This document shows positions 14,627-17,617 of a DNA stretch of 32,413 bases, piece after piece. Source of the stretch: an uncultured Arenicella sp. Lineage in GTDB: Bacteria > Pseudomonadota > Gammaproteobacteria > Arenicellales > Arenicellaceae. The number at the start of each line of letters is the position of its first letter. Position 1 is the first letter of the stretch. The stretch lies in NCBI GenBank assembly GCA_937989675.1, contig CALKRK010000282.1:1-32413 (forward strand). The letters run 5' to 3'. The position numbers and the translations under genes were made by a program. Under the pieces are notes generated by a model. The model did not search any database. It was not told the origin of the DNA and saw nothing but the letters and a program-made list of their open reading frames with translations.

Positions 14627-14709
14627 GGGTGTAAGCTATCACTGAATTGACGGTTCTTTATGCAGTGTAACATTTGAAACAATTATTTCTTACTGAGGAT
14701 CGAAATCTA

Positions 14710-15099
14710 ATGAAACATACTAAATCACAAAAAGCGTTGAGCTCGGCGCTAGCGACTTCTGTATTAGCAACTGCACTAATGAGTGCAGCACCGATCGCTT
14801 CGGCTGCATCAACCGAGCGTTGTGCAGACGTTGTTAAGGGCGGTAAAAACAGTTGCGCAGTAACATCACTGGGTATCTCCTGCCAAGGTAATGCCACTGA
14901 AGACAATATGGTTGGTGCGTGGATTAAAGTGCCAACAGGCACTTGCGGTAATATCGTGAATATCTGTGCAGGTACGGCTGAGGCGCCAGAAGGCACTAGT
15001 GAAAAGAAATTGAAAAGAGCATGTAAAAAGATCGCTGATCAAACCGACGAGACGGTTGCTGGCGGTCGTTTGGTAGATAAGCTTGGTGAATCTATCTAA
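14710..15099 (+). CDS. bufA: Bufferin-type precursor (DUF2282-like), six-cysteine variant
   Basis: The 129-residue product has a Sec-type signal peptide (residues 1-32, ending PIASA). The mature part carries cysteines at 38, 49, 58, 79, 86 and 105. The first four match those of the next gene in spacing: 11 residues between the first pair and 21 between the third and fourth. It also shares the K-x-G-x-N-x-C and W-x-x-x-P-x-G-T-C elements of DUF2282 (bufferin) proteins. The two extra cysteines sit in a C-terminal extension, and the His of the family's H-S-C element is Ile here (GISCQG). Bufferins are exported metal-binding peptides whose cysteines are modified by a DUF692 enzyme. The ATG at 14710 follows a TGAGGA ribosome binding site. 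Confidence 0.85.
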
Positions 15100-15164: not shown

Positions 15165-15192
15165 CAACCCTACTATTACAATGGAGACAATG

Positions 15193-15480
15193 ATGACTAG
15201 CAAAACAAAAGTAACCGCAGCCGCTTCAATTCTTGCAGTGGCAATGCTCGCTAACACGGGCGCTGCTCACGCTGGCAAAGAAGGCTATGAAAAATGCCAG
15301 GGGATCGTTAAGGCTGGTATGAACGACTGTGGCGCTAACGGCCATTCTTGTGCAGGCCAAGCGGCGGTTGATGGTGATCCAAATGAATGGGTCTATCTAC
15401 CTGAAGGAACCTGTGAAAAAATTGCTGGCGGAACTGTGAAAGCTCCGAAAGCAAAAGCCGAAGAAAAAGTTGACTCTTAG
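15193..15480 (+). CDS. bufA: Bufferin-type precursor (DUF2282), canonical four-cysteine form
   Basis: The 95-residue product has a signal peptide ending AAHA (residue 27) and a mature part with cysteines 35, 46, 53 and 74. The motifs [33 protein letters not shown] and [11 protein letters not shown] are those of DUF2282/BufA1. From published work on bufferins, some of these cysteines are converted to thiooxazole rings by the DUF692 oxidase, and the exported peptide binds copper. The C-terminus is a charged Lys/Glu/Ala tail. The start at 15193 is chosen because GGAG at 15183-15186 lies 6 bases upstream; ATGs at 15181 and 15190 are alternatives. The enzyme gene begins 23 bases after the stop. 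Confidence 0.93.
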
Positions 15481-15503: not shown

Positions 15504-17138
15504 ATGAAATCGGGTTTAGGGGTTCGCCCTGAATTGTTCGCCGCTATTGAGCAATCTAAGCCCGATTTTGGCTTCTTAGAAGCCCATTCTGAGAATTATT
15601 TTGGTGAATCCATTTCGCGCATAAAGCTGCTTGGTTTGCGTGAGCATTATCCTATTTCCTTGCACGGCGTCGGTTTATCGCTAGGGCGCGCGGATGATTT
15701 GGACCATGCGCATTTACGCCAGTTAAAAGCATTGGCCGACGAAGTGGATCCATTGTTCGTTTCAGAACATTTGGCATGGAGTGCCTATTCGCATCGGCAT
15801 TTGCCCGATTTGCTGCCCTTACCATTAACCGATGTCGCACTCAGTGTGATGTGCGAACACGTTGATCGTATGCAAATGGCATTAGGCCGATCTGTGCTAG
15901 TCGAAAACCCGTCCAACTACCTCGTGTTCGATCAGCTGCAAATACCTGAGCCTGAGTTTCTGAATGAACTCGCTCAGCGCACAGGTTGTGGCTTGCTTGT
16001 AGATGTTAATAATATTCATGTGAGCGCCACGAATATTGGTAGGGATGCGCGTGAATATATTAAATCGCTGGATAGCCGTTTTGTTTCTCAATACCACCTT
16101 GCTGGTTATACCGAGGTGCAGCGCACCGTTGGCGACGTTACCGAAACCTTACTGATTGACACGCACAATAAAGCGGTTTATCCGCCCGTTTGGGATCTGT
16201 TTGAATTTGTTTTGGCAGAGCATGGAGCCAGACCAACGCTGTTTGAGTGGGATTCGGATTTCCCAGAATTATCGGTATTAGAGGCCGAGTGTTTGAAAGC
16301 GGATCAACGACTGAGTCATTATGATTGCATCGTTGCGCACGGAGCACCAAAGCCAGTATCGGTGTCCACTTTGCCGGATACTTTGAAGGAAGAGCAGTCA
16401 ATTTTTTTAGACTCTGTTCTTAACGTGGCTACGGATCTAAAATCGGCGCAAACAACTCATCAACATCGAATTTGGGTCTATCAAAACAATGTGTTTGCCG
16501 CGTTGCAAGATTTTCTTGCGGAAGTCTTTCCTGGCACACGAGGGGTTGTTGGATCTGATTTTTTCAAGCAAATGGTGCAGCGTTATGTGCAGCATATGCC
16601 GCCTGAGCAAGGCAATATCCACTTATACGGAAGCACATTTAGCGACATTGTCTCATCATTTGAGGGGCTGCAGGGCCTACCTTATTTGAGAGACGTGATT
16701 GTATATGAGTGGGCCCTACATTCTGCTTACTATAGTCGTGTTTCGAATGCTCTGGATCCGACAGGTATCGCGCAGGAAGTGTTACTACAGATGCCTATCC
16801 AAGTGAATGACAGTGTCCGTTTGGTGCGCTCAGAATTTCCAGTCTTTGAGATACAAAGACAATCATTACCAGGTTACACCGGCGACATCTCCATTGATCT
16901 TAGTGAGAGCCAAGATAACATCTTGGTTTATAAGGTAAATCACAAAGTAGTTAGCCGTATTTTGAGTACCGAGCAGGCCGATTTTATTGAGCAACTAGAA
17001 AAATCGGAAAATTTATTGCAAGCAATTGAGGCGCTGCAAGGGTCTATATCAGCAACGAGCTTGTCGTCGGCACTGGCCATGGTGTTTGAGTGCCGCTTGC
17101 TCACGGTAGTTGAAGAAAACCAAGCCGTTTTACATTAA
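15504..17138 (+). CDS. bufBC: Fused DUF692 (MNIO, BufB) - DUF2063 (BufC) bufferin-modifying enzyme
   Basis: The 544-residue protein joins two families that are normally separate. Residues 1 to about 285 are a DUF692 TIM-barrel, a multinuclear non-heme iron oxidase. Likely metal ligands are His54 (SLHGVGLS), His89 (SEHLAWS), Glu134 (VENPSNY), Asp167 and His172 (VDVNNIHVS), His198 (QYHLAGY), Asp219 and His221 (IDTHN), and Glu248 (LFEWDSDFP). Residues about 318-530 are a DUF2063 protein, with HRIWVYQNNVFAALQDFLAE, a VFPGT..GSDFF block and LPYLRDVIVYEWALHSAYY. DUF2063 proteins act as precursor-recognising partners of the oxidase. The open reading frame is continuous with no break at the junction. 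The expected role is oxidative modification of precursor cysteines in the cytoplasm before export. No clear ribosome binding site precedes the ATG. Confidence 0.93.
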   Translation: MKSGLGVRPELFAAIEQSKPDFGFLEAHSENYFGESISRIKLLGLREHYPISLHGVGLSLGRADDLDHAHLRQLKALADEVDPLFVSEHLAWSAYSHRHLPDLLPLPLTDVALSVMCEHVDRMQMALGRSVLVENPSNYLVFDQLQIPEPEFLNELAQRTGCGLLVDVNNIHVSATNIGRDAREYIKSLDSRFVSQYHLAGYTEVQRTVGDVTETLLIDTHNKAVYPPVWDLFEFVLAEHGARPTLFEWDSDFPELSVLEAECLKADQRLSHYDCIVAHGAPKPVSVSTLPDTLKEEQSIFLDSVLNVATDLKSAQTTHQHRIWVYQNNVFAALQDFLAEVFPGTRGVVGSDFFKQMVQRYVQHMPPEQGNIHLYGSTFSDIVSSFEGLQGLPYLRDVIVYEWALHSAYYSRVSNALDPTGIAQEVLLQMPIQVNDSVRLVRSEFPVFEIQRQSLPGYTGDISIDLSESQDNILVYKVNHKVVSRILSTEQADFIEQLEKSENLLQAIEALQGSISATSLSSALAMVFECRLLTVVEENQAVLH

Positions 17139-17200: not shown

Positions 17201-17617
17201 ATGAAAAAAATCTATAATTTGTTCAGCGATCTGTGTGCAGATTTTGTGACACCCGTTGCAAACCTATGGGCAAGAATCTACATTGGTCTTATTTTCTTTC
17301 GATCAGGCAAGGCAAAGTTGGCTGATATGGAAGAAACCGTTGAGTTCTTTGAAGACGATTGGGCTTTGCCGTTTTTACCAGCAGAACCAGCGGCCTATTT
17401 AGCAACGGCCGGAGAGTTGGTGCTCCCAATACTTTTATTTATTGGCTTGTTCACTAGAGTTGGTGCTGTTGGTTTGCTGATAATGGCAGCGGTGATTCAG
17501 TTCTTTGTTTTGCAAGACCATCAGCATTATTTTTGGATGATTATTCTAGCGTTATTAGTTGGCCAGGGTGGCAGTAAATTATCCCTTGATTATTGGCTAT
17601 TGAAAGATCGCCGGTAG
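17201..17617 (+). CDS. DoxX-family membrane protein of the bufferin/gig operon
   Basis: The 138-residue protein has four predicted membrane helices and the DoxX-family pattern: ARIYIGLIFFRSGKAKLAD near the N-terminus, ATAGELVLPILLFIGLFTR in the middle and a terminal hydrophobic helix. DoxX genes close the gig (gold-induced) operon of Cupriavidus and many bufferin clusters, in the order DUF2282, DUF692, DUF2063, DoxX, exactly as here. Its function in these clusters is not firmly known; redox partnering or a role in the membrane step is possible. The gene lies 62 bases after the fused enzyme and is followed by a strong terminator, which marks the operon end. Confidence 0.9.
   Translation: MKKIYNLFSDLCADFVTPVANLWARIYIGLIFFRSGKAKLADMEETVEFFEDDWALPFLPAEPAAYLATAGELVLPILLFIGLFTRVGAVGLLIMAAVIQFFVLQDHQHYFWMIILALLVGQGGSKLSLDYWLLKDRR

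Follow-up and report, generated by a model that had tools for sequence, protein, structure and literature searches.

Does the long open reading frame in the middle of the window (the whole analysed stretch of 32,413 nucleotides from an uncultured Arenicella sp., a marine bacterium) encode an MNIO oxidase of the bufferin type (DUF692, BufB) and its DUF2063 partner (BufC) as one genuine protein, how far does such a fusion extend beyond this genome, and what could it do for the cell?

The fused frame and its operon

The frame runs from ATG to TAA without interruption, and the usual, non-defining bufferin trait of separate MNIO and partner genes is absent, both being located in one open frame. The following parts were distinguished:

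15504..17138, plus strand: MNIO–DUF2063/RRE-like fusion (BufB–BufC in one chain), 544 aa (frame, Pfam, NCBIfam, AlphaFold2 model)
15510..16307, plus strand: MNIO (BufB) domain, residues 3–268 (PF05114)
16308..16379, plus strand: linker, residues 269–292, variable in sequence and length (alignments, dN, lower pLDDT)
16380..17135, plus strand: PME-type-1 partner region, a helical DUF2063 domain (Pfam 298–381) followed by an RRE-like domain (about 430–535) (PF09836, model secondary structure)

The sequence-only reading had described one frame carrying both proteins, and the domain searches bear this out: a complete BufB-type MNIO and a DUF2063 partner were found in the 544 aa, with both Pfam domains above cut-off (PF05114 at 3–268, 299.2 bits, cut-off 25; PF09836 at 298–381, 61.6 bits, cut-off 27.2). 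The BufB equivalog model of NCBIfam scores 319.7 bits, above its cut-off of 310, which places the oxidase in the BufB subfamily. The partner part, including the RRE-like region, occupies about residues 293–535; the NCBIfam model for HvfC, an RRE partner, covers residues 315–517 with 40.7 bits, below its cut-off of 142.

The AlphaFold2 model of the fusion has a mean pLDDT of 95.1 and a pTM of 0.92, the lowest pLDDT values being those of the linker block 281–290 (72) and the C-terminus 540–544 (<50). The MNIO part is modelled as a TIM barrel like that of solved MNIOs, with TglH, MbnB and 3bww as the nearest folds (the list covers residues 1–277). In the RRE-like part, the predicted strands 439–443, 471–478 and 481–486, followed by helices 489–500, 504–510 and 517–529, fit the expected order, from which a modelled helix at 447–454, after the first predicted strand, departs. 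A partner-profile search of PDB sequences, in which NGO1945 (3dee) and TglI were the folds sought, gave no match at E 0.01. Judging from the model, the orientation of enzyme and partner may be fixed by the fusion. A linker of about 24 residues would permit a domain-swapped dimer, in which the domains act in trans and the fusion alters assembly and gives no fixed 1:1 complex, but the pTM of the single chain suggests an intramolecular interface, and such a dimer appears improbable.

All candidate iron-site residues, namely, H54, H89, E134, D167, N169/N170, H198, D219, H221 and E248, are present in the fusion and are at least 97% conserved over the 140 MNIO rows scoring above 280 bits, rows under 280 bits being left out; the likely metal ligands noticed as intact are thus present. 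With the exception of the Asn/Asp/His of site 3, the role of these residues as iron ligands is assumed here. In HvfB, the residues N175, D242 and H244 of site 3 are essential (PMC13419390); in the 3bww alignment, read by eye, N175 corresponds to the DVNN motif of the fusion (N169/N170), and D242 and H244 to the DTH motif (D219, H221).

The operon is represented by genes for precursor 1, precursor 2, the fusion and a DoxX protein, in this order. The elements around the fusion are as follows:

14630..14657, plus strand: promoter-like element TGTAAG-N16-GGTTCT, upstream of precursor 1
14710..15099, plus strand: precursor 1, 129 aa from ATG, DUF2282 core with a conserved C-terminal extension, 6 Cys (PF10048, 44.9 bits, cut-off 22.4)
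15190..15480, plus strand: precursor 2, canonical 4-Cys DUF2282 (Buf1-type) bufferin precursor (PF10048, 81.7 bits)
17201..17617, plus strand: DoxX-family membrane protein (HvfX-like), a core bufferin-cluster gene (PF07681, 72.1 bits)

The set of DUF2282 precursor, maturase and DoxX genes is the core of bufferin clusters (PMC12452194). As in Buf1 clusters, the gene next to MNIO encodes a DUF2282 precursor that has the four core Cys and a signal peptide, the latter judged by eye; the N-terminus of precursor 1 is also signal-peptide-like by eye. Two more specific NCBIfam models remain below their cut-offs, namely, HvfX on the DoxX protein (61.7 bits, cut-off 80) and BufA2 on precursor 2 (24.7 bits, cut-off 60). 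The locus is similar to the Buf1-type system of Caulobacter vibrioides in its MNIO passing the BufB model, its DUF2063 partner, its DUF2282 precursors with signal peptides and its DoxX gene, but it differs in having one chain instead of BufB and BufC, a second, extended precursor with 6 Cys, and, as far as its immediate neighbours were scanned, neither a sigma factor nor an NrsF gene.

Conservation within the genus

The window comes from a metagenome assembly with 288 contigs and a completeness of 80%, and a stop codon between residues 285 and 318 removed by a sequencing or assembly error would produce a false fusion. Genes of MNIO were found in 17 of 18 same-genus genomes searched (the own genome and 17 others), each within an open frame of 538–584 aa, while no MNIO was found in the remaining genome, G015. 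In the genus, 17 distinct fused proteins, including that of the window, were confirmed to carry the partner domain in the same frame as MNIO; the 16 others, from other assemblies, are 51–63% identical to it. Ten of the 17 other genomes were opened as loci; G003, G004 and G008–G012 were judged by frame length, which equals that of the named loci opened.

In the closest pair of fused genes, L038 and L039, dN/dS is 0.06 for MNIO and 0.08 for the partner, and 0.36 for the linker, a ratio based on 34 codons with dS near 1 or above; dN is 0.51 in the linker versus 0.06–0.07 in the domains. In several more distant pairs dS is saturated, and no ratio is given. The sequences thus indicate strong constraint on both domains and much less on the linker. 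Constraint on either side of the junction and the same architecture in other assemblies speak against an assembly artefact, which is vanishingly improbable; the lost stop codon that the sequence-only reading had named as its first possible refutation is ruled out by the conservation of the fused frame throughout the genus. The fusion is real and conserved, and probably functional.

The variability of the linker also leaves room for the partner being made alone, from a start codon within the linker or by proteolysis, the fusion then being only part of a mixed complex. Of 28 distinct fused frames, 26 have in-frame ATG, GTG or TTG codons in the linker, and a conserved leucine just ahead of the DUF2063 helix is encoded by TTG in 11 of 17 genus rows (by eye). 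However, only 7 of the 28 linkers contain ATG. Crude ribosome-binding-like stretches were seen ahead of six start codons, in five of the 28 frames, and the TTG leucine of L038 is the only one of the 11 with such a stretch. Separate production of the partner is accordingly considered very unlikely.

Both parts of the fused proteins carry substitutions typical for the genus. The consensus W at partner position 451, present in 89% of 108 separate partners, is absent from all 17 genus rows, and the partner consensus residues A399, R477 and P436 are retained in one, one and two of the 17 rows, respectively. In MNIO, the consensus H11 and G36 are each absent from all 17 rows, with two weaker changed positions besides. 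The window has Q451, I399 and K477 in the partner and L11 and S36 in MNIO. Since 11 fusions from outside the genus retain the consensus at 451, 399, 477, 11 and 36, the substitutions go with the lineage, not with the fusion. The loss of near-constant partner residues could mean altered recognition or chemistry, and the substitutions are perhaps linked to the 6-Cys precursor.

The C-terminal extension of precursor 1 contains a second Cys pair and a conserved GGRLVD...GES tail, and all 6 Cys are invariant in nine aligned rows. A search of 339 genomes of the class gave 82 matches, end-to-end in G000 and G007 alone, the draw including three members of the genus (G000, G007 and G005). Other matches span about positions 3–98, i.e., the 4-Cys core, and the few reaching positions 101–114 run through stop codons, except the window's precursor 2. 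Fifteen of the 17 distinct fused loci of the genus have the 6-Cys precursor, 11 the 4-Cys precursor and 16 the DoxX gene downstream of the fusion; neither the 6-Cys precursor nor the DoxX gene was found in L145, and L037 has just 365 bases upstream. In six loci (L026, L028, L029, L042, L044 and L047), the 6-Cys protein is the sole precursor found within 2.5 to 5 kb upstream of the fusion, a span that counts longer copies of L026, L028 and L029. The C-terminally extended 6-Cys precursor is more distinctive than the fusion itself. Tentatively, the genus may represent a distinct bufferin subtype, in which an altered single-chain maturase has the 6-Cys precursor as its main substrate and the product is a metallophore with an extra modified or disulfide-bonded Cys pair.

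The element at 14630..14657 resembles what we take to be an ECF-sigma promoter. All 15 distinct genus regions, including that of the window, contain the pattern TG[TA]AA-N18-GTTCT ahead of the 6-Cys precursor, against 0.045 hits per set of 15 in a mononucleotide-shuffle control, although the motif was read by eye from the same 15 regions and the count is no independent test. The exact sequence TGTAAG-N16-GGTTCT occurs twice in the own genome; the second copy (L183, 1501–1528, minus strand), located about 41 bases ahead of an ORF of 137 aa with a DoxX score barely above cut-off (23.7 bits, cut-off 23.6), may be due to chance, since the reversed-pattern control also gave one hit. No NrsF gene was found in the own genome, at its 80% completeness. 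The 7-base inverted repeat AAGTTCG-N7-CGAACTT upstream of the window's precursor 1 is absent from all 14 other distinct genus regions.

Occurrence and origin of the fusion

A similarity search of named genomes gave 80 loci; the 14 fused ones all lie within the clade of the tree formed by the genus and its close kin. None of the other 66 is fused: 63 have both genes separate, and L049, L070 and L113 are cut or partial. Separate neighbouring genes are thus the usual arrangement, as had been supposed.

Fusions also occur outside the genus, among them L133 (genome G324), L137 (G748) and L176 (G199), all three confirmed by Pfam. Of 41 genomes sampled from the genus of G748, 29 have a stop-free match in a single frame that covers over 500 of the 539 positions. 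In its family, perhaps Burkholderiaceae, a sample of 155 genomes overlapping with the former, the fusion is present in at least 47 genomes and at least 14 of 44 genera; a drop in bit score from 453 to 384 separates the fused rows from the others, and three of the 47 matches reach only positions 415–458. Ten loci of this family were opened (L149–L154, L164–L167); all are fused, and eight contain a DUF2282 precursor upstream of the fusion.

An even draw of 369 genomes of the class gave matches in 223, at least six of them fused, namely, four of the genus, G324 and G199. In an even draw of 398 genomes of the phylum, DUF2063 was detected in 145, and among the matches listed the own genome and G748 alone are fused. 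Ten listed DUF2063 frames of at least 480 aa from outside the genus were opened, a set that excludes the 486-aa frame G032:C29; two are true fusions (L133 and L137), and since the remaining eight merely overlap with a separate MNIO frame, frame length alone is misleading. In a search of plasmids, 352 records match, and in three of them a single place covers 80% or more of the query, the top-listed record being without annotation; no fusion was identified by name in the plasmid searches, and the second gave no match at 80%.

The fusions across the genus, in the family of G748, in G324 and in G199 rule out an architecture unique to this genome. The rarity implied by the sequence-only reading is not supported, given more than one origin, the frequencies in the genus and family of G748 and a record of the architecture from 2009. 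Its second possible refutation, that such fusions are common, applies in part, in view of the counts in the genus and family of G748 and in the draw of the class. The fusion is a genuine variant of a known system, shared with other bacteria.

The fusions apparently evolved from separate genes. The partner frame is out of phase with MNIO in all of 122 separate pairs (87 at +1, 35 at +2). In 121 of them the junction ranges from an overlap of 26 bases to a gap of 4 bases, as measured by the nearest start codon, a choice favouring overlap. Since the partner is out of phase and overlapping or abutting, one indel in the overlap could fuse a pair. In six further genomes (L177–L182, chosen for being in phase and additional to the 122), in-phase MNIO and partner genes are separated by one stop codon; these are possible fusion intermediates. 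From the EWD motif to the first partner-model position, the median is 61 codons in 130 separate pairs, versus 71–85 in the genus fusions (in three of 17 rows the motif finder took a later E-F-D, which shortens the span by about seven); both ends thus seem to have been kept and a short stretch added. The span is 69–79 in eight of the ten opened genes of the G748 family, 92 and 134 in the other two, and 104 in L133.

In the MNIO tree, the genus fusions form one clade (100/99) adjoining the separate pairs of Hahella and Saccharospirillum (97/83), while nine of the ten fused rows of the G748 family form a group (100/97) far from it, with L164 apart from those nine. The fused label requires four changes on a quick tree of 156 rows and three on a careful tree of 70 rows (3–3 in 200 bootstrap trees, 5–95% range); the careful tree excludes the long-branched L133, and L176 is in neither tree. 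AU tests reject a single clade comprising all 27 fused rows (p = 2.7e-5); p is 9.4e-5 for the 26 rows without L164 and 0.012 for a single clade of the family's ten rows. As far as the MNIO tree indicates, a single origin for the fusions of the genus and of the G748 family is rejected; a single gain followed by numerous losses might be an alternative history.

The genus MNIO groups with homologues of Hahella, Saccharospirillum and Alphaproteobacteria rather than with the homologues sampled within its own order (L009–L023), which suggests horizontal acquisition of the operon. A same-genus genome that also carries the fusion, G005, contains a second bufferin-like system with separate genes (L144, 3784–5835), and a similar system was found in the same-family genome G020 (L143, 382–2437), with a DUF2282 precursor that has a long stretch ahead of the Cys core.

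With pairs so closely abutting, and six further ones parted by a single stop, the fusion might also be selectively neutral: one indel or stop loss would join the genes, and the fused form would drift in and stay, not selected against. Many genomes do keep separate pairs. However, all MNIO-bearing genomes searched within the genus have the genes fused, fusions are present in at least 14 of 44 genera of the G748 family, the joining lengths are similar across origins, and a man-made fusion of relatives raised activity (PMC13419390); neutrality is therefore regarded as rather unlikely.

Proposed function and significance

The fusion is most readily interpreted as a single-chain bufferin maturase, with a probability of roughly 0.8. 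This interpretation is favoured by the scores of both Pfam domains and the BufB model above cut-offs, the confident two-domain model, the core bufferin set in the operon, the long frame throughout the genus, the constraint on the domains, more than one origin, and the higher activity of the man-made HvfB–HvfC fusion compared with the co-expressed pair (PMC13419390, preprint 2026). The loss of near-constant partner residues, the HvfC, HvfX and BufA2 scores below cut-offs, and the separate genes in the 66 non-genus loci and in the second pair of G005 count against it.

By analogy with studied relatives, from which reaction, metal and benefit of the fusion are taken, the MNIO domain would hold a multi-iron site and act in the cytoplasm, ahead of Sec export, by oxidizing selected cysteines of the DUF2282 precursors encoded next to it; the products are probably copper-binding 5-thiooxazoles, and the exported peptide would buffer copper in the periplasm. 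The DUF2063/RRE-like part would bind the precursor, and the active mixed-valent diiron state would depend on it, as that of HvfB depends on HvfC. Covalent joining would guarantee an active complex of 1:1 stoichiometry; this matters since association within a separate pair can be weak and since the precursor, bearing an export signal, needs early capture. It has been suggested that the partner may keep the Sec signal masked as long as modification is under way (PMC12452194), and a pre-assembled chain would suit a race between modification and export.

Complexes of MNIO with a partner are already known, namely, MbnBC and HvfBC, and because HvfB and HvfC bind weakly they were fused by hand for study of the active iron site; this fusion showed mixed-valent diiron chemistry, the partner recruiting the precursor and enabling that state (PMC13419390). 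The engineered protein shares with the fusion described here the order of MNIO followed by partner and the covalent 1:1 ratio, but it is man-made, linkerless and acts with an EGKCG-repeat precursor, whereas the present fusion is natural and has about 24 variable linker residues. The expectation that the fusion would show directly that both proteins act as one unit holds as corroboration of the complex by a natural fusion; it is not the first such demonstration, the known complexes and the assayed HvfBC fusion preceding it (PMC13419390).

The DUF692–DUF2063 architecture is not new either: a remark of 2009 recorded it, with DUF692 at the N-terminus, in one of the 216 DUF2063 proteins then in Pfam (PMC2954202), although the family was then read as possible transcription factors and the passages concerned contain no analysis of the fusion. 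No other description of natural MNIO–DUF2063 fusions was found in the literature searched, which mostly excludes subscription journals. MovX of a Vibrio methanobactin-like cluster is likewise a natural MNIO with a domain of its own and requires no separate partner, but the domain described for it is wHTH (winged-helix)/RRE and not DUF2063, and its target is a C-terminal Asn. MNIO–nitroreductase fusions also join MNIO to another domain, in that case another partner enzyme, and DUF2063 is not mentioned in their description (PMC12452194).

The natural fusion is thus a counterpart, evolved more than once, of a recently engineered enzyme (PMC13419390). Natural fusions support a 1:1 complex of MNIO and partner as the working enzyme, and environmental bacteria offer ready single-chain enzymes for structural and spectroscopic work, while the 6-Cys precursor represents a testable new substrate shape.
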